A stretch of 64,000 bases of DNA. Origin: Acetobacter lovaniensis. Lineage in GTDB: Bacteria > Pseudomonadota > Alphaproteobacteria > Acetobacterales > Acetobacteraceae. The stretch is taken from the NCBI RefSeq assembly GCF_014207635.1, contig NZ_JACHIE010000002.1, positions 186,001 through 250,000 of the forward strand, in the 5' to 3' direction. Below the pieces are notes generated by a model. The model had not been told where the DNA came from. It did no database searches and saw only the letters and a program-made list of their open reading frames with translations. Shown one piece after another: positions 49,863-64,000 of this stretch. Position numbers and translations under genes: made by a program. Positions within the stretch are counted from its first letter, which is position 1, and the number at the start of each line of letters is the position of its first letter.

Positions 49863-50267
49863 ATGACATTGGATGACGCCCAGACCATCCTCGCACTCAC
49901 GCACTGCTCGGACCAGTACGAACGCGCACTGGCCGAAAACGATGTGGCCGCGCTGGACGCCCTGTTCTGGCAGGGGCCACAGACCGTGCGCTACGGTGTG
50001 GGGGAAAACCTTTACGGCGCGGAAGAAATTGCCGCCTTCCGCCGCAACCGCACAGGTGGCTCGCCCCCGCGCACCATGTTGCGCCGCGCCATAACCCCCA
50101 TTGGCACTCAGGCGGGGGTTGTCAGTCTGGAATTCCGCCGCATCGGCTCCACCCGCACGGGTCGGCAGATGCAGACATGGATCAACACGCCCGATGGCTG
50201 GAAAATTCTGGCGGCCCATGTATCCATCATGGCCGAACAGCCAGAAACCGAACGCCCCACACTGTAA
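49863..50267 (+). CDS. hpxZ: Oxalurate catabolism protein HpxZ / AtzH-like (DUF3225)
   Basis: 134-residue protein of the NTF2-like DUF3225 family. It starts with LALTHCSDQYERALAENDVAALDALFW and contains RYGVGENLYGAEEIAAFR. Homologue AtzH acts in 1,3-dicarboxyurea deamidation in the cyanuric acid pathway; HpxZ is required for oxalurate use in enterics. It lies 33 bp after pucG with AAGGA upstream. It probably assists the downstream amidase in ureide breakdown. Confidence 0.9.
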   Translation: MTLDDAQTILALTHCSDQYERALAENDVAALDALFWQGPQTVRYGVGENLYGAEEIAAFRRNRTGGSPPRTMLRRAITPIGTQAGVVSLEFRRIGSTRTGRQMQTWINTPDGWKILAAHVSIMAEQPETERPTL

Positions 50268-50282
50268 GGAAAGGAGCATGCC

Positions 50283-50471
50283 ATGACCACGCCTCCCTTC
50301 TCTGATGAGGTTCTTGTCGCTGCCCGTGCGCAGGCCATGGATCTTGACCTCCCCCCGGCCTGTATTGCTGGCGTGATTGTCAACACCCGCCTATTGCAGA
50401 ACTATGCAGCCCTTGTAAGGGATTTTCCACTCCCCGACACATGCGAACCAGCGGGAGACTACACACCATGA
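50283..50471 (+). CDS. hpxX: HpxX / AtzG-like small subunit (DUF4089)
   Basis: 62-residue protein of the DUF4089 family. AtzG, the homologue, forms a complex with the amidase AtzE. Helical segments PPACIAGVIVNTRLLQNYAALVRDFPLP match the family. The start at 50283 is set by AAGGAG 6 nt upstream; a closer ATG (50278) would give a two-codon peptide. The stop overlaps the amidase start (ATGA), consistent with stoichiometric subunit production. Confidence 0.88.
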   Translation: MTTPPFSDEVLVAARAQAMDLDLPPACIAGVIVNTRLLQNYAALVRDFPLPDTCEPAGDYTP

Positions 50472-51817
50472 CCCGCTTTGCAAGCGCACTGGGTATTGCG
50501 CAGGACATCCGCACAGGCAAACGCAGTGCGGCCTCCGTCATGCAGTCGGTGCTGGCTACCATCAACCAGCATGATGCCGCCATTCACAGCGTAACCCACC
50601 TGTTTGCACAGCAGGCCATGGAGCAGGCTCAGGCAGTGGATGCCCTGCTGGCCCGCAAAAAACCCCTGCCCCCGCTGGCCGGTGTGCCTTTTGGGGTCAA
50701 GGACCTGTTTGACATTCAGGGCCATGTCACCACCGCAGGTTCCATTGTGCTGCGCAATACTCCCCCCGCCACGCAGGATGCCACCATTGTGGCCCGCCTG
50801 CGCGCAGCCGGAGCCATTGCCGTTGCCACACTCAACATGGATGAATTTGCCTACGGTTTTGCAACCGACAACGCCCATTACGGCATAACCCGCAACCCGC
50901 ACGATACAAGCCGTATGGCCGGTGGGTCCTCCGGCGGGTCGGCGGCCGCTGTTGCTGCCGGTTTTTTACCGCTCACACTGGGGACAGACACCAACGGGTC
51001 CATCCGTGTACCGGCATCATTATGCGGGGTATGGGGGTTAAAACCCACATTCGGCCGCCTCCCGCGGGAGGGGGCCTATCCTTTTTCCGCCAGTCTGGAC
51101 GTAGTGGGGCATTTTGCCGGAACGCTGGATGACCTTATGGCCGCCTTTTACATCATGGCGGACACACCAGCCGAACCCGAACCCCAGACCCTGCGCGCCG
51201 CATGCCTTGGCGGCTGGTTTGCGCAGAACCTCAGTCCCGCCCTTGCTGCGGCCATAGGCCGGGTCTGCCAGCATCTTGGTCTGTCAGGCAGTGTGGAACT
51301 GCCACAGATACCAACTGCCCGGGCTGCATCCTTCCTGATTACAGCGGCAGAAGGTGGCACGCTTCACCTGCCCCGCCTGCGCGCAGCGGCGGAGGAATAC
51401 GACCCCGCAACCCGCGACCGGCTTCTGGCTGGCGCCATGCTGCCTTCCAGCACCTATGTGCAGGCACAACGCTTCCGCCGCTGGTTCCGCCGGCAGGTGC
51501 ATGCCATGTTTGAAGAGGTGGATGTGCTGATTGCTCCTGCCGTTATGTGCGAAGCCCCCCGACTGGATGACCCCACCATCATGGTTGACGGCAAACCGGC
51601 CTCCGCCCGTGCCAATCTGGGCCTGTACACACAGCCTATCAGCCTGCCCGGCCTGCCCGTACTCTGCCTGCCGCTCAGGAACACCGGTACCCTGCCTCTG
51701 GGCCTGCAACTGGTAGCGGCTCCCGGGCGCGAGGCGGCCCTGTTCAGTCTGGCACGCAAGCTGGAACAGGCTGGTCTGGCCGGACGCTGCCCTCTTGAGG
51801 CGCAACAGGCTGCGTAA
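50468..51817 (+). CDS. atzE: AtzE/HpxY-family amidase (amidase signature)
   Basis: Amidase-signature hydrolase of 449 residues. The Ser-cisSer-Lys triad is intact: Lys78 (GVKDLFD), Ser154/155 (GGSSGGS) and Ser178 (GTDTNGSIRVP). TIGR02715-type (AtzE) enzymes hydrolyse 1-carboxybiuret, and HpxY-type relatives act in oxalurate use. With hpxZ and hpxX upstream it forms the AtzE-AtzG-AtzH-like set, here coupled to allantoate/ureidoglycine enzymes. HpxW (oxamate amidohydrolase) is not in the window. Confidence 0.88.
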   Translation: MTRFASALGIAQDIRTGKRSAASVMQSVLATINQHDAAIHSVTHLFAQQAMEQAQAVDALLARKKPLPPLAGVPFGVKDLFDIQGHVTTAGSIVLRNTPPATQDATIVARLRAAGAIAVATLNMDEFAYGFATDNAHYGITRNPHDTSRMAGGSSGGSAAAVAAGFLPLTLGTDTNGSIRVPASLCGVWGLKPTFGRLPREGAYPFSASLDVVGHFAGTLDDLMAAFYIMADTPAEPEPQTLRAACLGGWFAQNLSPALAAAIGRVCQHLGLSGSVELPQIPTARAASFLITAAEGGTLHLPRLRAAAEEYDPATRDRLLAGAMLPSSTYVQAQRFRRWFRRQVHAMFEEVDVLIAPAVMCEAPRLDDPTIMVDGKPASARANLGLYTQPISLPGLPVLCLPLRNTGTLPLGLQLVAAPGREAALFSLARKLEQAGLAGRCPLEAQQAA

Positions 51818-53533: not shown

Positions 53534-54457
53534 TTACACCAAAGCCTTGGTCAGTTGTGGCACCACATCGAACAGGTCTCCCTCAATCGCATAATCCGCA
53601 ATCTGGAAAATGGGAGCATCTGGGTCTTTATTAACAGCCACAATTACGCGGCTATCCTTCATGCCAGCCAGATGCTGAATGGCACCGGAAATGCCAAAGG
53701 CCAGATACAGTTCCGGCGCAACAATTTTACCTGTTTGGCCAATCTGATAGTCATTCGGCACAAACCCAGCATCCACTGCAGCACGCGATGCGCCAATGGC
53801 GGCCCCCAATGCGTCGGCCAATGGTTCAAGAATTTTAAATTTCTCTTCGCTTTGCAAACCTCGTCCACCAGAAACTACAACCCGAGCGGTTTCCAGATCC
53901 GGACGTTCTGAAACTGATAGATGTATTGCAATAAATGTGGAAACCACAGATTCCGGCACAGAAGCAGCAACCTCAATAACAGCTGCCTCTCCTGTAAACG
54001 GTGCGGCGTCAAACGCGGCACTCCGAACCGTCAGAACCTTTTTCTTGTCACGGGATTGCACTGTTGCCAGAGCATTCCCTGCATAAATGGGACGAACAAA
54101 CGTATTGGCATTCACAATACAAATAACATCCGGTATAGGCTGCACATCCAGCAGTGCCGCAACACGCGGCAATACATTTTTGCCGAGTGTGCCAGCAGAA
54201 GACAAAATATAATCATAACCAGCAGCAAGAGAGACAATAAGGGCAGCCAGAGGCTCTGCCAACTCATGAGCATAACATGGGTCTGTCGCGTGCAGAACTT
54301 TGGAAATTCCCCCAATGCTGGCTGCGGCTTGAGCAACGGCATGTCCCCCTGTTACCAGCACATGGACATCACCCAACCGAGTTGCAGCCGTTACGGCACT
54401 AAGCGCCGCTTTTTTTATCTGACCATCTTCATGGTCTAGCAATACCAGAGAAGTCAT
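53534..54457 (-). CDS. etfA: Electron transfer flavoprotein alpha subunit
   Basis: FAD-binding subunit of ETF, which collects electrons from FAD dehydrogenases. 307 residues; the C-terminal FAD domain shows [48 protein letters not shown] and the end segment [19 protein letters not shown], all diagnostic. It is last in a leftward operon hisC-like, FAD dehydrogenase, hutD, oxygenase, etfB, etfA, with 2 bp to etfB. No ETF-quinone oxidoreductase gene lies in the window. Confidence 0.95.
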
Positions 54458-54459
54458 TG

Positions 54460-55209
54460 TCAGATCACCTTTTGTTCATAGCGGAGGTGTTCGACCAGTT
54501 CACTTACCGAGCCTACCCTAACACCAGCAGAACGCGACGGTGGAGCCGTCACAGAAACAATGCTCAAGCGAGATGCAACATCCACCCCAAGGCTTCCGAC
54601 ATCAAGTGTTTCAAGCGGTTTTTTCCGCGCCTTCATAATATTAGGCAATGAGGCATAGCGTGGCTCGTTCAAGCGCAGATCCGCCGTAATAACGGCTGGA
54701 AGCCTGAGAGAAATCTCTTGCGTGCCCCCATCAATTTCTCGGCTGACATGGACCTGACCCGCAACCATATCTACCTTACCCGCAAACGTGCCCTGCCCCC
54801 AACCCAACAAACCAGCGAGCATCTGACCGGTTGCATTCATGTCATCATCAATGGCCTGTTTGCCAAGAATAACCATGCCGGGTTTTTCTCTCGCAACAAG
54901 AACCTTGAGCAGCTTGGCAATACCCAGTGGTTCGAGGTTTTCTTCAGAAAGCACAAGAATAGAACGGTCCGCACCCATTGCCATAGCAGTCCGGAGGGTA
55001 TCCTGCGCCTGCTGCACGCCAATGGATACCGCCACAACCTCCGTCGCAACTCCTTTTTCCTTCAGACGCACAGCTTCTTCCACTGCAATTTCATCAAAAG
55101 GATTCATGGACATCTTGATGCCTTCGGTTTCCACACCGCTGCCATCAGTCTTCACTCGAGGCTTTATATTGTAATCTACAACCCTTTTAACCGGGACTAG
55201 AATTTTCAT
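54460..55209 (-). CDS. etfB: Electron transfer flavoprotein beta subunit
   Basis: AMP-binding partner of EtfA, 249 residues. [14 protein letters not shown] is the canonical start. [18 protein letters not shown] and [23 protein letters not shown] follow, and the ETF beta signature is near [31 protein letters not shown]. Its start overlaps the stop of the oxygenase gene by 4 bp. Placement inside a catabolic operon suggests a dedicated acceptor for the FAD-linked dehydrogenase upstream rather than the general fatty-acid ETF. Confidence 0.95.
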
Positions 55210-56162
55210 GATATTTTTTTCTTTTGTGAGTCACTGATACGCCCCATGATATATGCCCCCGCTGTAACAGGAGCATAATGAGACGCTTGTGTTTCAGGCA
55301 AACCCAGATCGTGCGGGTCAATAATCGCACCAAAATCAGGATCGTAAAATGTAGCTATGGAAAAGCGCTCTTTTCCTGATTTGTTTAAAACACGATGCAT
55401 GTTTGACCGGTACCGATCATTGGACCAGCGACACAACAGATCACCAATATTAATAACTAAAGTACCAGGAATTGGCACCGCAGACACCCATTCGTTCTGT
55501 AAGTTCTGCACCTCCAGACCACCGGTATCATCCTGCCACAATAATGTAATGCACCCATAATCAGTATGGGGCGCAACGCCATAGGTTATACTTTCGGATT
55601 CAGGGCACGCTTCCGCAGGCGGGTACCAGATTGCCTGAGTCCGCTGCAATGGATAATGATATTTTTTTTCGAAAAAACTGCTGTCCAAATTCAAGGAATT
55701 TGCAACTGCTTTCAAAAGTACCTGACCACATGCACCAACTGCCTTATAATACTCTAAAAATGCCTCCCGAAAAGCCGGACGGCCTTCTGGCCAGATATTG
55801 GGACCTTGCAACTCGTTTTGTGGTAGCGATTGTCCAGATGCAGGAGGAAATTCAGGACCAATCTGGTAAAATTCCTTACAATCCGGATGATCCGCACCGT
55901 ACATAATGGTACGGTTGAGAGCATTAAACCCACGCACTGCCTGCTTGGGCCGGTAGCGGTCTTTTTCAGAAAGCGGAAGATGGAAAAAATCCAACGCCTG
56001 CTTTTTTAACTCTGTTATACAGTTCTCAGAAATTCCATGATTTTTTATATAACAAAATCCAGATGACACAAACGCATCATGAATCTGCTTTCCCACCAAG
56101 ACATCATCGCCTTCACGGGCTGGAGCAAGATCAATAACGGGAATAAAGTTATCTTGCGTCAT
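55206..56162 (-). CDS. 2-oxoglutarate/Fe(II)-dependent oxygenase, IPNS-like
   Basis: Non-haem iron oxygenase of 318 residues in the isopenicillin N synthase/ethylene-forming enzyme-like family. Iron ligands are His199 and Asp201 (APHTDYG) and His256 (SNMHRVL); Arg266 in ERFSIATF would bind the 2-oxoglutarate carboxylate. The N-terminal DIOX_N-like start IPVIDLAPA and [11 protein letters not shown] are typical. All catalytic residues are present. Substrate unknown; the operon suggests an amino- or hydroxy-acid derivative. Confidence 0.85.
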
Positions 56163-56206: not shown

Positions 56207-56791
56207 TTATGTTCTTATGTAATATAAGGAGCTTTCTTCTTCCATCGGTTCCAGAACAGTGTTCTGCACAGTTTCAGATGTGCAATACCAAACTGCTCCT
56301 GCCGTAACAGAGTGTTCCACACCTCCTGAGCACATGATCCAGCGTCCTGTTGAAGGAAACAAAAAATAATTATTTTTTGTTTGACCAGTGTTCCGGATAG
56401 AAAATCTTTTTTGATGCAGAACAAAATCCTCTTTCTGCTCTGCATGTCCTGAATGGCGAAGCATCAGATTCAGGGCCCGCACAGCCCCACTCGGACATGA
56501 CGACAACACCTCGTCCTCCCCGGCAAACACATACGGCTCGCAAAATGCTTCAAGCGTATGGCACCATGCTCCGGTCTTTTCACGCAGGACAAGTGCGCCC
56601 CTGCCAAGAAGTGCGATGGAACGTTGCCAGCCAGCAAAAGCAGAAAATGGCGCATCGTACAAAAGATCGGCAACACTCAGCCGCCACGCAGGCAAAGTGT
56701 GCGTGTTATCCTCTGCGATAATCCGCGTTACACCCTGACCATTGCGCCACGGCATAGCGGTTACATGTGTAAAAAGACGCCGCTGCCACAT
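56207..56791 (-). CDS. hutD: HutD family protein
   Basis: Cupin-like HutD/Ves-family protein of 194 residues. The N-terminus TAMPWRNGQGVTRIIA followed by WRLSVADLLYDAPFSAFAGWQR matches the HutD signature (PWKNGGGxTREIA, WRxSIA). HutD of Pseudomonas is a histidine-utilisation accessory thought to restrain hut overexpression. It starts within the stop codon of the FAD dehydrogenase gene (TGATG overlap). No hutH, hutU, hutI or hutG is present. Codon use is AT-richer than upstream genes. Confidence 0.85.
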   Translation of the reverse strand: MWQRRLFTHVTAMPWRNGQGVTRIIAEDNTHTLPAWRLSVADLLYDAPFSAFAGWQRSIALLGRGALVLREKTGAWCHTLEAFCEPYVFAGEDEVLSSCPSGAVRALNLMLRHSGHAEQKEDFVLHQKRFSIRNTGQTKNNYFLFPSTGRWIMCSGGVEHSVTAGAVWYCTSETVQNTVLEPMEEESSLYYIRT

Positions 56792-58176
56792 CAGTTAACC
56801 GGGTCCGGCAGCATTTTACCGGGATTAAGAATATTGTTGGGATCAAAGCTCGCTTTAAGCATCCGCATAACATCCAGCGCATCACGCCCATGCTCGCGTT
56901 CCATAAACTCCTTTTTGCCCAAGCCAACACCATGTTCACCGCTACACGCCCCGCCAAGAGAAAGCGCACGACCAACTATTTTACGATCCAGCTCAAGCGC
57001 ACGCTCCAGCCCATCGTCTTCAGGAGGCACAAGAATAACCGTATGGAAATTCCCATCCCCCACATGGCCCACAATCGGCGCAATAAGACCGGATTCCTCA
57101 ATATCGTGCTTGCAACCAGCAATTAGTTCTGTCAACGCGGAAACAGGTACAACCGCATCTGTTGCAATGCCACGATGGTGAGGACGGTAAGCAAGACAAG
57201 CCCAAAACACATTATGTCGCGCCTTCCACAGTTCGTTCCGTTCTTCTGGGTTATTGCTCCACATAAACCCCTTGCCATTATTGTCAGCAACAATTGCCTC
57301 CATCGTTTCCACCTGCTCACGCACAGCAGCAGGAGCACCATGGAATTCAAAAAACATGGTTGGCAAAACTTCATAACCAGTCAACTTAGAATACTGGATA
57401 CAGGCATCCATCTGCACTTCATCCAGCAACTCCATCCGCCCGATCGGAAGACCGATTTGCATAGTGGTCACGGCTGTATTAACGGCATCTTCCAGTCGGT
57501 CAAACTGGCAGACCGCCGTGGCTATGGCTTCTGGCAATCCGTGCAGACGTAGCTGCACTTCCGTAATAATACCAAGAGTGCCTTCCGAACCAACAAACAG
57601 GCGTGTCAGGTCATAACCCGTTGCAGATTTGCGCACACGTCCACCTGTACGAACAATACGCCCATCTGCCAGAACAACCGTAAGGCCGAGTGCATTTTCC
57701 CGCATGGTGCCATACCGCACAGCAGCCGTACCTGATGCACGCGTGGCGCACATGCCGCCAAGCGTTGACTCGCCTCCTGGATCAACCGAAAAGAACAGCC
57801 CCGTATCGCGCAGGTAAGCGTTCAACGCGTGCCGCGTAACACCTGCCTCCACCCGACAATCCAAGTCCTCTGCATTAAGCTCGACAATCCGTGTCATGCG
57901 GGAAAGATCAAGGCTAATCCCCTGCTCGCTCGGCGTAACATGCCCTTCCAGTGAGGTGCCACCGCCAAACGCCACCACAGGCACGCCATGCTGATTACAC
58001 GTCCGCAAGACTGCAGAAACCTCTTGCGTGCTTTCCGCAAAAATGACTGCACCGGGCAAACATGCTGGCTGCCACCCCTCACCATGCGCATGATGGTCAC
58101 GCATGGCCTCGCTGCGGGAAATACGGTCCCCAAACATTTCAGCCAAATCGTTTAAAGCATGTTCAAGCGCAGCCAT
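56791..58176 (-). CDS. FAD-linked 2-hydroxyacid dehydrogenase (LDHD/GlcD-like)
   Basis: VAO-family flavoenzyme of 461 residues oxidising a D-2-hydroxy acid to the 2-oxo acid. The PCMH FAD domain shows VVAFGGGTSLEGH, DPGGESTLGGM and SEGTLGIITEVQLRL. The C-terminal domain shows GHVGDGNFH, GEHGVG and the final NPGKMLPDP. No N-terminal signal. LDHD and D2HGDH relatives in mitochondria pass electrons to ETF, which fits the etfBA genes in the same operon. The side chain oxidised cannot be told. Confidence 0.87.
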   Translation of the reverse strand: MAALEHALNDLAEMFGDRISRSEAMRDHHAHGEGWQPACLPGAVIFAESTQEVSAVLRTCNQHGVPVVAFGGGTSLEGHVTPSEQGISLDLSRMTRIVELNAEDLDCRVEAGVTRHALNAYLRDTGLFFSVDPGGESTLGGMCATRASGTAAVRYGTMRENALGLTVVLADGRIVRTGGRVRKSATGYDLTRLFVGSEGTLGIITEVQLRLHGLPEAIATAVCQFDRLEDAVNTAVTTMQIGLPIGRMELLDEVQMDACIQYSKLTGYEVLPTMFFEFHGAPAAVREQVETMEAIVADNNGKGFMWSNNPEERNELWKARHNVFWACLAYRPHHRGIATDAVVPVSALTELIAGCKHDIEESGLIAPIVGHVGDGNFHTVILVPPEDDGLERALELDRKIVGRALSLGGACSGEHGVGLGKKEFMEREHGRDALDVMRMLKASFDPNNILNPGKMLPDPVN

Positions 58177-58215: not shown

Positions 58216-59349
58216 TTACAGAACTAAATCAGCCAGAGCCCGCAGCATTATGTTATTTTCCTCAGGCAAACCGATGCTTATGCGAATCCAGTTTTCAAAA
58301 CCTGCTTCCTTCCAGGGCTTTATGATAATGCCCCGCTCCAATAATGCCGTGGACAGCTTGTCAGCCAGCATGGGAGTACGAACAAAAACAAAATTCGTCC
58401 ATGTAGGAGCAACAAACAGTCCTTGCGTAACAAGAAGCTGCACCACCCGTTCTCTTTCTGCAACGGTTTTGCTTACACAGTCCTGCATATATGCGGTATC
58501 GGCCAGTGCGGCACATGCAGCCACCTGCGCAGGCATGTTGGTATTGAATGGATCACGCACACTATCCAACGTAGCCGTAACATCAGCCGAAGATGTCAAA
58601 GCATAACCAATACGCAAAGCCGCCAGACCATACGCCTTTGAGAAAGTGCGCAGAATAATCCACGGCCGCGCCTGTTTTTCCAAAATAGCGCGCGCATCAG
58701 GATAATCTGGGTCTTGTTCCGCATATTCCCGGTAGGCTTCGTCCACCACAATCAACGTGTCAGGCGGGCATGCTTCTATCAGCGCGCGCAGAGCCTCACC
58801 CGTCATCATGCATCCGACCGGATTGGAGGGATTGGCGAACATGAGAAGTTTGGTGGGCTGATGCACCGCCGCCAGCATTGCTGCATAATCAAACGTAGCT
58901 TCAGCAGTAATAGGTACTGCATCAACTACAGCCCCCATCATGCGTGGACAAATCTCGTGCAGACCGAAAGCGGGCCTAACAGTAACAACCCGATCTCGGG
59001 GAGAAAGATAGGCCTCGGCAATCATCCGAATAATCTGCTCGGACCCGTTGCCAACCAGAACGCGATCATGCGCAATGCCACAGGTCTTAGCAATATCGGA
59101 GCGCAATGTTGCGGCTCCGGCATCGGGATAACGCCCCAAACGACCCATCAGCACATCCCATCCGGATTTTACCAGATCAGAAGGCCCATATGGATTTTCA
59201 TTACTACCAAGTTTGACAATATTTTTAAGGCCATAGCGCCGCTGGACTTCCTCTTCTGAAAGACCAGAATTATAGCGCGGCAACCCGGAGACCTCTGGTC
59301 GACATAATGGCTGCCGAGCCAATAGCGAAAGAGCCACAGTGTCTGACAT
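58216..59349 (-). CDS. hisC: HisC-like histidinol-phosphate/aromatic aminotransferase
   Basis: Fold-type I aminotransferase of 377 residues with the HisC pattern: LGSNENPYGPS near the start, GSEQIIRMIAEAYL, FANPSNPVG, VDEAYREYA and Schiff-base Lys238 in TFSKAYGLAALRIGY. It heads the leftward operon, with AGGAGG about 9 nt upstream. Since it is not with his genes and sits with hutD and a 2-oxo-acid-producing dehydrogenase, it probably transaminates a histidine- or aromatic-type 2-oxo acid in catabolism rather than making histidine. Confidence 0.83.
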   Translation of the reverse strand: MSDTVALSLLARQPLCRPEVSGLPRYNSGLSEEEVQRRYGLKNIVKLGSNENPYGPSDLVKSGWDVLMGRLGRYPDAGAATLRSDIAKTCGIAHDRVLVGNGSEQIIRMIAEAYLSPRDRVVTVRPAFGLHEICPRMMGAVVDAVPITAEATFDYAAMLAAVHQPTKLLMFANPSNPVGCMMTGEALRALIEACPPDTLIVVDEAYREYAEQDPDYPDARAILEKQARPWIILRTFSKAYGLAALRIGYALTSSADVTATLDSVRDPFNTNMPAQVAACAALADTAYMQDCVSKTVAERERVVQLLVTQGLFVAPTWTNFVFVRTPMLADKLSTALLERGIIIKPWKEAGFENWIRISIGLPEENNIMLRALADLVL

Positions 59350-59385
59350 CGTGAAGAAACCTCCTGCCTAACGTGGTAGGCCTCA

Positions 59386-59414
59386 TTAATGTATAGACAT
59401 GTTATGGCTGTAAA
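59386..59414 (-). promoter_or_regulatory. Candidate promoter of the leftward operon
   Basis: Minus-strand TTTACA (59409-59414), 17-bp spacer, CATTAA (59386-59391). The -10 is weak. The operator-like TGTCTATACA lies mostly in the spacer and overlaps the -10 by two bases, mirroring the rightward promoter. Confidence 0.35.
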
Positions 59415-59593
59415 GAGCAAAAATCTGCCATTCTCCAATTCAATGACTGATTTCATCACTACTCATCGCAAAAATGACAGAAAACCGGGAAAATATTACA
59501 CTGTCAAAACGACAATGAAAAAGTCTTAATATACCAGCAAAGTCTGCATTCCCGGCAAAGTCTCCAGCGCGTCGCACGTCAGCACGTTTCTGC

Positions 59594-59623
59594 TTGACCG
59601 TCAGTGTACATACAACGTATGGT
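59594..59623 (+). promoter_or_regulatory. Candidate promoter of the rightward operon with internal operator
   Basis: TTGACC (59594-59599), 18-bp spacer, TATGGT (59618-59623). The perfect TGTA-N2-TACA site (59605-59614) lies within the spacer, where a repressor would block polymerase. The phyH-like start is 26 bp downstream. Confidence 0.5.
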
Positions 59624-59648
59624 TTTGATATCGGAACGTAAGGAAAAA

Positions 59649-60473
59649 ATGCTTATGGCACTTCCTATATCTCCACCCATATTAGACGAAATGACGGTTC
59701 GTACTTTTCAGGCCGAGGGTGTAACCATTGTACGTGGCGCCTTTACTGACTGGATAGAACCTTTGCGCGCGGGTCTGGCTGCTACCATGGCTGCTCCTAG
59801 CCCTTTGGAGCGCTCCTACCACCCGGAAGGGTCTGCTCCTTTTTTTCAGGATCTATGCAACTGGCAACGCATTCGTCAGTTCCGGGACTTTGTTGAAAAA
59901 TCCTCGGCTGCCCAGATCGCTGCACAGCTTATGGAATCGCAGGAAGTCCGCTTTTTCCATGACCATGAACTTGTCAAAGAACCCGGCACGACCCTGGTTA
60001 CACCCTGGCACCAGGACAGTCCGTATTATTGTGTGACAGGCGACAAAACACTCAGCCTGTGGATTCCTCTGGACCCTGTCTCCAAGGCACAATGTCTGGA
60101 ATGTGTTGCAGGCTCACACCTATGGGGTGTCACCCATCGTCCTCGTCGCTTTGATGGTTCACGTCTTTATGAGAATGATACAATGCCCGAAATGCCGGAT
60201 ATTGATACAGACCGTGATGCCTATGCCATTCGGAGTTGGGATATGGCGCCAGGCGACGCCATCGCATTTGACTTTCGCATGATTCATGGCGCACCCGCTA
60301 CTACTGACAGCACGCAAAGACGACGCGTCTTTTCAGCCCGATGGGTAGGAGACAACGCACGCTTTGCAGACCGTGCCGGCAAAGGGTCTCCTCCATTTTC
60401 GCATGTTGTCCTGAAAGAGGGAGACCTTTTGGATGGTCCAGACTTTCCCTTGATTTACAAAGCTATTTCCTAA
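59649..60473 (+). CDS. Phytanoyl-CoA dioxygenase (PhyH)-family Fe(II)/2-oxoglutarate oxygenase
   Basis: 274 residues from the ATG at 59649, set by AAGGA 6 nt upstream. The iron triad is His121, Asp123 (TPWHQDSPYY) and His213 (MIHGAP); an Arg in QRRRVFSARW would hold 2-oxoglutarate. PhyH-family enzymes hydroxylate acids, amino acids, betaines or phosphonates, not only phytanoyl-CoA. As first gene of the uptake operon it probably starts degradation of the imported compound. It is unrelated in sequence to the IPNS-like oxygenase of the opposite operon. Confidence 0.85.
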   Translation: MLMALPISPPILDEMTVRTFQAEGVTIVRGAFTDWIEPLRAGLAATMAAPSPLERSYHPEGSAPFFQDLCNWQRIRQFRDFVEKSSAAQIAAQLMESQEVRFFHDHELVKEPGTTLVTPWHQDSPYYCVTGDKTLSLWIPLDPVSKAQCLECVAGSHLWGVTHRPRRFDGSRLYENDTMPEMPDIDTDRDAYAIRSWDMAPGDAIAFDFRMIHGAPATTDSTQRRRVFSARWVGDNARFADRAGKGSPPFSHVVLKEGDLLDGPDFPLIYKAIS

Positions 60474-60497: not shown

Positions 60498-61388
60498 ATG
60501 AAAAACTATTATCTTTTTTTGCCCCGTATCCTTCTTCTTGCGGGTTGCATGGCGTTCACCTCCGTGATGTGCGCCCCCGCACAAGCGGATTGCCTGGATG
60601 ACATTCATAAAGCGGGTGTTCTTACGGCAGGCAATGCCTTGTTGGGCGCGCACCCTTCCCTTTGGCAGGAAAAAGACGGCACTTATCACGGCATTGATGC
60701 CGACCTTTTGCAGGAACTGGCAAAACGTCTGGGGATTCCACACTGGCAATTTATTATTACCGAATGGACCTCTCTGATCCCCGGACTGAAAGTAGGTCGA
60801 TGGGATATTGTGCTCTCTGACCAGACCATTACTGAAGAGCGCATGTTTTATGCGCATATTGCCTACTCTCACCCCTATTTTCTGCTTTATGACCGTATTA
60901 TTGTGCTCGGAAACTCACCCTTGCACACTGTGGCGGATCTTAAAAATGCAACCTTAGGGTCCGTTTTAGGCACAACCGATTCCCTTACGGCGCATTCTCT
61001 GGTTGACAGAGGACTGGCTGCGAAAGTCAGTGAGTTTAATACATTTGGTGACCCCTTTGTCGCGCTCAAAAATGGCCAAATCGACGCCATTGTCGTTGAT
61101 CAGGCAACATTGCAGTCTCAAAAAGAACATTTTGCAGACCTTCGCACCTTAGGACCACCACTTTTTTACGACGCCAAACCGGCGTGGAAAGAAGCACAGG
61201 CCAAAGCCCACTATAAACTCGGCAGTGAAGGTGTTGTAGTGCGCGGCAACTGCCCGCGCCTATTGGACGAGATTAACCACGCCATGGACAACATGAAGCA
61301 GGACGGCACCATCCGCACAATTTTAAAGCGCTACCATGTTTGGGAAGCGCTTGAAGACCACCTTACCCAGAACGAACAGACGGAGTAG
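60498..61388 (+). CDS. Amino-acid ABC transporter substrate-binding protein (SBP_bac_3)
   Basis: Periplasmic binding protein of 296 residues. A signal peptide (about 30 residues, cleavage after APAQA) precedes mature sequence. The family-3 pattern follows: GVLTAGNALLG, GIDADLLQELAKRLG, WDIVLSDQTITEERM, ADLKNATLGSVLGTTD and FVALKNGQIDAIVVDQ. An excellent AGGAGGAGGG Shine-Dalgarno precedes it. With the permease and ATPase downstream it forms a polar amino-acid-type importer. Confidence 0.9.
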   Translation: MKNYYLFLPRILLLAGCMAFTSVMCAPAQADCLDDIHKAGVLTAGNALLGAHPSLWQEKDGTYHGIDADLLQELAKRLGIPHWQFIITEWTSLIPGLKVGRWDIVLSDQTITEERMFYAHIAYSHPYFLLYDRIIVLGNSPLHTVADLKNATLGSVLGTTDSLTAHSLVDRGLAAKVSEFNTFGDPFVALKNGQIDAIVVDQATLQSQKEHFADLRTLGPPLFYDAKPAWKEAQAKAHYKLGSEGVVVRGNCPRLLDEINHAMDNMKQDGTIRTILKRYHVWEALEDHLTQNEQTE

Positions 61389-61393
61389 AATAG

Positions 61394-62110
61394 ATGTCTG
61401 TTTTTTGGTCTGAAGCACAGGAATATTTCCCATTTTTGTTAGTGGGAGCCAAAGTTACTCTTGAACTCTCTCTTATCAGCATGCTGGGAGGTATGGTTCT
61501 GGGTTTTTTAGCAGCCATTGGTCGCCTATCAGAAAGGCGTTTTATACGCTGGCCCTTGGAAGTCTATGTGGAAATATGGCGCGATACTCCGCTTATTGTA
61601 CAGCTTTTACTCATTTACTTCTCACTGCCTGAATTTGGTATTGTTCTTTCTGGGTTCTGGGCGGGTGTTCTGGGCCTGACCTTAAATTTGTCAGCTTATC
61701 TTTCGGAAGTCTATCGTGCGGCCATTATGGCCGTTGACCCTGGACAAAGAGCGGCGGCAATCTCTTTGGGCATGTCACCTTTTCAAGAGTACCGCAGGCT
61801 TATTATGCCACAGGCTTTTGTCGCCTGCCTCCCCACACAGGGCGGATATTTTATTGCGCTACTCAAAGACTGCTCTTTGGTTTCCTTTATTTCGGTCAAT
61901 GAACTCCTGCGTCATGCAACCATTGTCATATCCAATACATTTGACAGCATGAACATATATCTGATGGTTGCCGTAATCTACTTCTGCATGAGTTTTGCCA
62001 GTGCGCGTTGTGTCGGTTGGCTGGAACGCACCCTGACCCCTGAACGCAGAAAAACAGTGGGCGTAAAACCGATCATGTCGGAACTGGCAGAAGAGGATAA
62101 CACCTTATGA
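61394..62110 (+). CDS. Polar amino-acid ABC transporter permease (HisM/GlnP type)
   Basis: Integral membrane protein of 238 residues with about five helices and the EAA loop AAAISLGMSPFQEYRRLIMPQAF. The His/Glu/Gln/Arg TRAP-type N-terminus FLLVGAKVTLELSLISMLGGMVLGF is typical. It starts 5 bp after the binding-protein gene and overlaps the ATPase gene by 4 bp. A single permease gene implies a homodimeric channel. Confidence 0.9.
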   Translation: MSVFWSEAQEYFPFLLVGAKVTLELSLISMLGGMVLGFLAAIGRLSERRFIRWPLEVYVEIWRDTPLIVQLLLIYFSLPEFGIVLSGFWAGVLGLTLNLSAYLSEVYRAAIMAVDPGQRAAAISLGMSPFQEYRRLIMPQAFVACLPTQGGYFIALLKDCSLVSFISVNELLRHATIVISNTFDSMNIYLMVAVIYFCMSFASARCVGWLERTLTPERRKTVGVKPIMSELAEEDNTL

Positions 62111-62889
62111 GCCGTGCACCCTCTCCCGTTCTTCATCTTGAGCAGGTCTATAAATCCTATGGAGAAACGACTGTTTTACGCGGTGTTGACCTGAAGGTTT
62201 TCCAAGGTGACGCTGTTTTTCTGATCGGTCCCAGTGGCGGAGGCAAATCAACCCTCTTACGCTGCATCAATTTTCTTGAATACCCAGATGCCGGAACCAT
62301 TACTGCTCTAGGGGAAAAGCTTTGCAGCCAGAACCGCACTCATTTTGAAATTGCTCCAGAAAAAACACTGCGCCATGCACGAGCCCGCATGCCCATGGTT
62401 TTTCAGCAATTCAACCTGTTCTCACATCAGACCGTGTTGGAAAATGTTATGGAAGGCCTCATAACCGTTAAAAAAATTCCACGGCTGGAGGCTATGACTT
62501 TGGCACGTACGGCACTTGACCGTGTTCACATGCTCCAAAAACAGAACAATTATCCAGATCAACTATCCGGCGGACAAAAACAACGCGTAGCGATCGCCCG
62601 TGCACTGGCCATGGACCCACCTGTTATTTTGTTTGACGAGCCAACCAGTGCGCTTGATCCAGAACTGGTCAGTGGCGTGCAGGCCATTATACAGGACCTT
62701 TCCGCGCAGGGGCTGACTTTGCTGGTAGTCACCCATGATCCCGCTTTTGTACAGTCCACAGCCCATACAGTCTGTTTTTGTGGTGATGGCTACATTCTGG
62801 AAAGCGGCACGGTGAATGATATTTATGGCAATCCTCGCAACGAGCGCGTACGTAAATTCGTTCAATCTTCAGGTATCCAGCGTGTCTGA
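62107..62889 (+). CDS. Polar amino-acid ABC transporter ATP-binding protein
   Basis: ATPase of 260 residues of the GlnQ/HisP group. Walker A GPSGGGKST, Q-loop VFQQFNLFSHQT, signature LSGGQKQRVAIARAL, Walker B VILFDEPTSALDPEL and H-loop VVTHD are complete. The insert GEKLCSQNRTHFEIAPEKTL between Walker A and the Q-loop resembles HisP-type ATPases. Start overlaps the permease stop. Confidence 0.93.
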   Translation: MSRAPSPVLHLEQVYKSYGETTVLRGVDLKVFQGDAVFLIGPSGGGKSTLLRCINFLEYPDAGTITALGEKLCSQNRTHFEIAPEKTLRHARARMPMVFQQFNLFSHQTVLENVMEGLITVKKIPRLEAMTLARTALDRVHMLQKQNNYPDQLSGGQKQRVAIARALAMDPPVILFDEPTSALDPELVSGVQAIIQDLSAQGLTLLVVTHDPAFVQSTAHTVCFCGDGYILESGTVNDIYGNPRNERVRKFVQSSGIQRV

Positions 62890-62994: not shown

Positions 62995-64000
62995 ATGACT
63001 TTAAACCAGACCAATGCACACGCCCCTGCCAGTGCTGCAACCATAGAACAGCGCACGATTTACCCCATCCCTCATTCTGAACGCATGGGGCATCCACGTG
63101 ACCTGTTTTCTGTGTGGTTTGGCACTAACACGACCATTCTTACCGTTATTACGGGAGCACTGGCGACAATCATGTTCCAGCTCCCTCTCACAGCGGCCTG
63201 CGTGGCCCTGCTCCTAGGTAATCTGGTCGGGGGCGTTTTTATGGCTCTGCATGCAGCGCAGGGACCACGTCTTGGCGTGCCACAAATGGTGCAAACATGC
63301 GGGCAGTTCGGCTCAATGGGTGCCGTTCCCATGATCTTGCTTGTTGTGTTCATCTATGTCGGATTTTCGGCTTCGAATCTTGTTGTAGGAGGAGAAGGAT
63401 TTCAACTAGCCTTGCCCTGGCTAGGTTACACAGGCGGAGTGCTGGCCGTTACCATACTCTCGGCTTTTCCTGCATTCTGGGGTTACAGAACCATCCACAC
63501 CATTACCAAGCTCATATCCTGGAGTTGTGGCATCGCGATTATATGGGCTCTTGTTTGCATTTTTGGTAACACGCAAGCTTATGTGCTTCTGGGCAGTTTT
63601 GGCCATACCTCATTGTCTGGCTTTATGGGGGCTGTGTCGGTTGCGGCTCTCTGGCAACTGGCTTATGCGCCTTACGTTTCCGATTATTCACGTTACCTGC
63701 CTAACAGCAAACAGGGGGCACGACATGCTTTCCACGCCACCTACTGGGGATCAGCGCTCGGCACACTTCTGCCTATGTTTCTTGGAGCCATACTCGGCAT
63801 CATCACTCCAAGAGGCAATGAAGTCCTACCTACGCTCATGCAGTATCTTGGTGGGTCTGGCTCCCTGATCATGACCATGCTTGTCATTGGTATTACAGTC
63901 GCCAACGGCATGAGCATTTATTGCGGAAGCCTGTCATCACTCATGCTGCTACAAATGTTCTACCCTAAAAGTCACTTTGGCGTACGGACACGTATTGCTG
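62995..64000 (+). CDS. NCS1-family permease (cytosine/purine/allantoin type), 3'-truncated by window end
   Basis: The frame opens at the ATG at 62995 and is still open at base 64000 (335 codons). It encodes a multi-helix protein with the family signature near PRLGVPQMVQTCGQFG, and LWQLAYAPYVSDYSRYLP later. NCS1 carriers move nucleobases, allantoin, hydantoin or related heterocycles with Na or H. It lies 105 bp after the ABC ATPase, same strand. Pseudomonas hut loci also contain an NCS1-like permease, which supports an imidazole or related heterocycle as cargo. Confidence 0.85.
   Translation, partial: MTLNQTNAHAPASAATIEQRTIYPIPHSERMGHPRDLFSVWFGTNTTILTVITGALATIMFQLPLTAACVALLLGNLVGGVFMALHAAQGPRLGVPQMVQTCGQFGSMGAVPMILLVVFIYVGFSASNLVVGGEGFQLALPWLGYTGGVLAVTILSAFPAFWGYRTIHTITKLISWSCGIAIIWALVCIFGNTQAYVLLGSFGHTSLSGFMGAVSVAALWQLAYAPYVSDYSRYLPNSKQGARHAFHATYWGSALGTLLPMFLGAILGIITPRGNEVLPTLMQYLGGSGSLIMTMLVIGITVANGMSIYCGSLSSLMLLQMFYPKSHFGVRTRIA

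Follow-up and report, generated by a model that had tools for sequence, protein, structure and literature searches.

Candidate HutC operators in a divergent dioxygenase and aminotransferase gene island of Acetobacter lovaniensis

Gene content of the island

The window analyzed here is a 64-kb stretch (C2:186001-250000) of the 3.46-Mb genome of A. lovaniensis. Its intergenic region 59350-59648 is flanked by a leftward HisC-like aminotransferase gene on one side and a rightward gene for a PhyH-family dioxygenase on the other (Table 1). The leftward operon contains hutD, as proposed in the initial annotation, together with genes for a FAD-linked 2-hydroxyacid dehydrogenase (FADox) and a second dioxygenase (2OGD) whose closest match is an entry named 2-oxoglutarate-dependent ethylene/succinate-forming enzyme. 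The PhyH protein is closest to MysH both in sequence (27-28% identity) and in fold (model pLDDT 90.6). Its residues H121, D123, H213, R224 and R225 are invariant in all 15 aligned sequences; by family assignment, they would supply the HxD...H iron triad and the 2-oxoglutarate-binding arginine.

The electron transfer flavoprotein genes at the end of the leftward operon have only partial matches in A. pomorum (L107). None was found beside 2OGD in nine relatives with the island (L068-L076) and in A. thailandicus (L109); two further records, L067 and L108, end before this part of the operon would be reached.

Table 1. Genes, candidate operators and the predicted promoter of the island, in window coordinates.
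Feature	Position	Strand	Evidence or remark
Electron transfer flavoprotein alpha subunit (EtfA)	53534..54457	-	best match electron-transfer-subunit family, 164 bits, below cutoff 600
Electron transfer flavoprotein beta subunit (EtfB)	54460..55209	-	PF01012
Fe(II)/2-oxoglutarate dioxygenase, DIOX_N type (2OGD)	55206..56162	-	family and homologue search
HutD	56207..56791	-	PF05962, 93.6 bits
FAD-linked D-2-hydroxyacid dehydrogenase (FADox)	56791..58176	-	PF02913, PF01565; closest solved relative D-lactate dehydrogenase LDHD, 8jdc, E 4e-137
HisC-like aminotransferase, first leftward gene	58216..59349	-	TIGR01141, 292 bits, cutoff 276.55; NF003496, 495.7, below cutoff 540
Left candidate HutC operator TGTATAGACA	59390..59399	.	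one mismatch to TGTA-N2-TACA
Sigma70-type promoter TTGACC-18-TATGGT	59594..59623	+	right operator overlaps; TTGAC invariant in 11/11
Right candidate HutC operator TGTACATACA	59605..59614	.	exact consensus; inside 18-bp spacer of rightward promoter
PhyH-family Fe(II)/2-oxoglutarate dioxygenase, MysH-like, first rightward gene	59649..60473	+	PF05721; MysH, E 3e-27
Polar amino acid ABC transporter substrate-binding protein (SBP)	60498..61388	+	TIGR01096, 89.9 bits, below cutoff
ABC transporter permease	61394..62110	+	family search
ABC transporter ATPase	62107..62889	+	family search
NCS1-family permease	62995..64000, continues past window end to C2:250461	+	PF02133, 154.7 bits

Candidate operators and promoters

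Two candidate HutC operators are present in the intergenic region. The right site is the perfect TGTA-N2-TACA that had been claimed for this position, and the left site, also as claimed, carries a single mismatch. The consensus named in the initial annotation agrees with the description for Pseudomonas, where both HutC binding to TGTA-N2-TACA and its release by urocanate are reported as experimental results (PMC12977541). The right site is the sole exact TGTANNTACA in the window, where 0.21 would be expected. Because 18 of 100 shuffled windows have at least one exact TGTANNTACA, a single exact match alone is weak evidence, and we rejected it as stand-alone proof. In the complete genome, exact sites occur at five places. 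Three of the other four fall within open reading frames, and one (C30:7309) lies outside the listed frames; its contig has frames resembling a recombinase and an integrase, as judged from their translations rather than by family search.

The promoter scan identified TTGACC at 59594-59599 and TATGGT at 59618-59623, so the right site does lie within the 18-bp spacer described in the initial annotation. The scan gave two promoter-like sites versus a mean of 1.0 in shuffled sequences and thus proves nothing alone; as stand-alone proof it was rejected, since it hardly beats chance. The right operator begins 5 bp after the -35 hexamer TTGACN in 11 of 11 genomes, and in all 11 it is located between the -35 and -10 elements, a placement able to block RNA polymerase. 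The left site had been described as lying similarly inside an opposite promoter. This is not supported: the scan gives no minus-strand promoter, and no -35 element occurs at a fixed distance from the left site across the 11 genomes. On these grounds we rejected the view that the left site repeats the layout seen on the right.

Both sites contain the GT-N4-AC motif described for the HutC subfamily of GntR regulators; the left one, GTATAGAC, fits GTMTAKAC exactly, and the right one, GTACATAC, deviates from it at the centre (PMC4494728). Between GT and AC, the right operator has ACAT here and ACAG in relatives. The core of most hut promoters is TATATA, and because the centre of the right operator departs from it, the affinity of this site may differ.

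HutC and the hut cluster

A genome search for a GntR/HutC homologue identified hutC at C2:262587-263315, 12.6 kb beyond the window end. The protein matches the NCBIfam model TIGR02018, 'histidine utilization transcriptional repressor HutC', with 261.5 bits against a cutoff of 220. It has an N-terminal GntR winged helix (PF00392) and a C-terminal UTRA domain (PF07702), both over cutoff, and the closest solved structure is HutC 2pkh. The adjacent genes are hutH, hutU, hutG, hutF and hutI, all of which score over the cutoff of an equivalog model. A genome search for GntR-type HTH domains gave four; UTRA follows only in HutC, which is the one protein returned by a genome search for that domain.

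The one-mismatch form TGTATATACC precedes both hutI and hutU of this genome. In the hutI promoter, TTGACT-18-TATGGT, the operator again occupies the spacer, 4 bp after the -35 element, compared with 5 bp in the PhyH promoter. A third island site, CGTATGGACA, with two mismatches, lies outside the window before a TonB receptor gene, 5 bp after TTGACC. The listed ATG of this gene overlaps the operator, so that the true start is probably further downstream. Counterparts of this site were marked in 9 of 11 genomes; one record (L069) is cut at the edge, and in L071 none was marked, though the matrix listing gives TGTCTATACG at L071:164. The gap between the NCS1 and TonB genes (L002 2462-2892) is longer than in G272 and has sequence absent there, possibly the remnant of an insertion.

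Conservation in related genomes

We searched 299 genomes of the family for PhyH and for HutC. PhyH proteins of at least 60% identity were found in 21 genomes besides the source genome, and the regions of all 21 were examined. The same divergent island adjoins hut genes and hutC in 10 of the 21 (L067-L076), which belong to five genera; the L067 record is cut inside FADox, with HutD and 2OGD out of view. In seven (L077-L083), PhyH accompanies hut genes or a HutC-like gene but the arrangement differs, and four (L084, L085, L086, L101) have PhyH without hut or HutC-like genes in the available piece. Among the matches listed, the closest named PhyH is that of A. pomorum (88%).

HutC-like matches (E < 1e-20) are present in 19 of the 22 genomes with a close PhyH, versus 60 of 277 others. 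Within the genus, no match to HutC or PhyH was found in G117, G169 and G210. G030 and G242 lack PhyH and match HutC only weakly, and in G295 HutC is present but PhyH is not.

Both sites are retained with at most one mismatch in all ten relatives with the island, and they also occur in the records named A. pomorum, A. senegalensis and A. thailandicus. In several relatives the left site is replaced by TGTATATACA or CGTATATACA. When the 11 regions are aligned, the invariant columns include seven of the ten left-site bases and nine of the ten right-site bases, together with TTGAC and the TA of the -10 element. Invariance is thus concentrated in the operators and the -35 and -10 elements, and most of the remaining region has diverged.

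Matrix search and linkage to hut genes

A positional matrix was trained on hut-promoter sites of HutC loci without the island. Of 14 such loci (L087-L100), 13 contributed 19 sites in all, 16 being distinct, and L099 contributed no site. As training sites were chosen by at most one mismatch to the consensus, the matrix is seeded with it and is not motif-blind. Among the 63,991 window positions, the 10-bp matrix ranks the left site first (15.2 bits) and the right site second (14.8), and the next position scores 9.8. The 12-bp matrix gives the same two ranks. With a 16-bp matrix the left site is first and the right site fourth; this version overfitted its flanks, and the 10- and 12-bp versions were used instead. 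The two sites never occurred together in 20,000 first-order Markov randomizations of this intergenic region.

Linkage was scored in a set made of the best 80 loci of the PhyH contig scan and the loci of the relatives. After removal of two duplicates (L110 and L118), 105 of 107 loci were scored, with neighbours judged within the DNA available per locus, since some contigs are short. HutH, HutU or HutI is nearby in 33 of the 105 loci listed. Searching the 350 bp upstream of PhyH gave a site scoring 11.9 bits or more in 19 of these 33 hut-linked loci, which are not independent because 14 of the 19 share the same island. Without HutH, HutU or HutI, 3 of the 72 loci listed have an upstream site, and all three (L083, L116, L127) are near a HutC-like gene; with L128, which has no site, they make up the four listed loci whose only such neighbour is HutC-like. 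Among the 68 listed PhyH loci that lack both kinds of neighbour, hut and HutC-like, none has an upstream site reaching 11 bits. Weak one-mismatch strings, below 11 bits, occur upstream of PhyH in four loci away from hut genes (L122, L148, L166, L181). An earlier rule at 11 bits had given 21 of 37 versus 2 of 70; it missed a contig-cut HutH (L107) and weaker HutC-like proteins (L083).

Among the hut-linked loci listed, 14 of 33 lack a site directly upstream. Seven of them (L078-L082, L111, L161) have a site of at least 15 bits elsewhere between the genes of the locus, one (L140) has a site of 11.8 bits elsewhere, and in the other six no site scores above 10.

Vreelandella, Variovorax, Reyranella, Zavarzinia and a Rhizobium MAG have the same operators among differently arranged genes. 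In Vreelandella sedimenti (L111, L195), PhyH, an aminotransferase, an ABC transporter, FAD and FMN dehydrogenases, HutH, 2OGD and HutD are found in another order; TGTATATACA lies between HutH and 2OGD and also precedes SBP and HutF. The FADox and SBP of this species are 32% and 23% identical to their island counterparts. Two HutC-like genes (L195 4191-4907 and 16558-17244) flank the module, about 12 kb apart, possibly a split of the control of hut and island genes.

Comparison with known HutC systems

According to the description of the Pseudomonas hutU and hutF promoters (Phut), they resemble the present locus in the TGTA-N2-TACA core, in an operator placed over promoter elements and in hutC lying among hut genes; the protected region at P. 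aeruginosa hutU overlaps a sigma54 site, whereas here the operator is within a sigma70-type spacer (PMC12977541). Unlike in Pseudomonas Phut, the operators here precede genes for dioxygenases, an aminotransferase and hydroxyacid dehydrogenases.

The HutC regulons reconstructed for 113 proteobacterial genomes share the hut core and HutD with this locus, as well as ABC, TonB-dependent and COG1457 (purine/allantoin-type) transporters, which are taxon-specific members there (PMC5343134). A word search of the main text of that study returned no dioxygenase, oxygenase, aminotransferase, imidazol, Acetobacter or Rhodospirillales. The HutC protein and its operator are well known; what the sites here would bring into the histidine regulon is a conserved enzyme module.

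Regulatory model

It is highly likely that both sites are HutC operators that co-regulate the island with the hut genes. The initial annotation had suggested HutC-type repression of the island, and the suggestion is strengthened by the regulator gene, the sites kept in 10 of 10 relatives with the island and the one-mismatch forms before hutI and hutU. We infer HutC binding and repression here from the gene, the sites, their spacing, conservation and co-occurrence, all read from sequence; repression of the island is very probable, and release by urocanate is proposed by analogy with Pseudomonas.

In the proposed mechanism, a HutC dimer on the right site would, without inducer, cover the -35/-10 spacer and keep RNA polymerase off the PhyH-ABC-NCS1 operon. 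A second dimer on the left site would turn off the leftward aminotransferase-FADox-HutD-dioxygenase operon. HutC would also repress hutI-hutC and hutU-hutH-FMNdh via the TGTATATACC sites. Histidine, whether supplied or made by the island, would be converted to urocanate through HutH, and urocanate would free HutC from DNA, so that all units are switched on together.

Could another regulator with a GT-N4-AC preference bind the island sites, leaving HutC confined to hutI and hutU? Such a division would agree with the three further GntR-type HTH proteins of the genome and with a right-site core unlike the hut core. It seems very unlikely, since none of the three matched the UTRA family, strong upstream sites are found only near hut or HutC-like genes among the loci listed, and three members of the genus have no match to either HutC or PhyH. 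Chance matches, kept merely through inheritance of the intergenic region, would suit the frequency of exact matches in shuffled windows but are rejected because of the site conservation, with invariant columns on the operators, -35 and -10 in an otherwise diverging region, and because of the linkage to hut and HutC-like genes, with operators recurring in other gene arrangements.

Possible function of the island

Under HutC control, the enzyme set would belong to the histidine regulon, so that its substrate would be sought among imidazole compounds and its inducer could be predicted. The island plausibly feeds imidazole compounds into the hut pathway. With moderate confidence, we propose that HutC governs a conserved, as yet unnamed front-end that turns a non-histidine imidazole compound into histidine or urocanate; its content would be two Fe/2OG dioxygenases, D- and L-2-hydroxyacid dehydrogenases, an aminotransferase, HutD, and outer- and inner-membrane uptake. 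EtfA and EtfB may take the electrons of FADox. The recurrence of the module in another gene order in the gammaproteobacterium Vreelandella is more suggestive of a discrete, new pathway than of genes shuffled locally. HutD, described as a hut protein of unknown function as of 2016 (PMC5343134), gains a recurrent set of partners to examine.

One tentative possibility is the salvage of D- and L-imidazolelactate, in which FADox (D) and FMNdh (L) would yield imidazolepyruvate, the HisC-like enzyme would convert it to histidine, and HutH would act next. The kinship of FADox to LDHD points this way, as does FMNdh, a member of the L-2-hydroxyacid family encoded outside the window after hutH. The aminotransferase is HisC-like, the next most similar protein of the genome (at C5) is just 29% identical to it, and the enzyme set recurs in Vreelandella. 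Imidazolelactate salvage leaves both dioxygenases unexplained, however, and six loci (L077-L082) have PhyH beside hut genes without the aminotransferase or dehydrogenases; the dehydrogenases could also act on other 2-hydroxyacids. Older work by Coote and Hassall is said to concern imidazolyl-lactate degradation by Pseudomonas.

Alternatively, the dioxygenases might free histidine by oxidative cleavage of an N-substituted form such as N-methylhistidine or an opine-like conjugate. We consider this rather unlikely. It draws on the similarity of PhyH to MysH, for which hydroxylation and destabilization of a glycine substituent are predicted (PMC10510106), on genomes where PhyH alone accompanies the hut genes and on the TonB receptor present here; an identity of 27-28%, however, does not transfer the substrate. 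The open-licence literature searched gave nothing on point linking imidazolelactate or methylhistidine catabolism to hut genes, and among the titles listed for phytanoyl-CoA dioxygenase with HutC none concerned HutC regulation.

In SAR116 and other alphaproteobacterial records (L120, L122, L123, L125), PhyH homologues occur near a homologue of the FMN hydroxyacid dehydrogenase (about 30% identity) with no hut gene mapped, hinting that the pairing of these two enzymes is wider than histidine.

Other catabolic genes are found in the same region as hut. At window positions 49863-51817, a gene for HpxZ (146.5 bits, cutoff 135) adjoins one for an AtzE-family amidohydrolase (600.9, cutoff 461), by family assignment a predicted oxalurate-type purine catabolism pair. 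Beyond the hut cluster (L003 2304-14217; C2:269-281 kb), the translated frames resemble xanthine dehydrogenase, a xanthine/uracil-type permease, a polysaccharide-deacetylase-type protein and a guanine-deaminase-like amidohydrolase, suggesting a regional nitrogen catabolism cluster.
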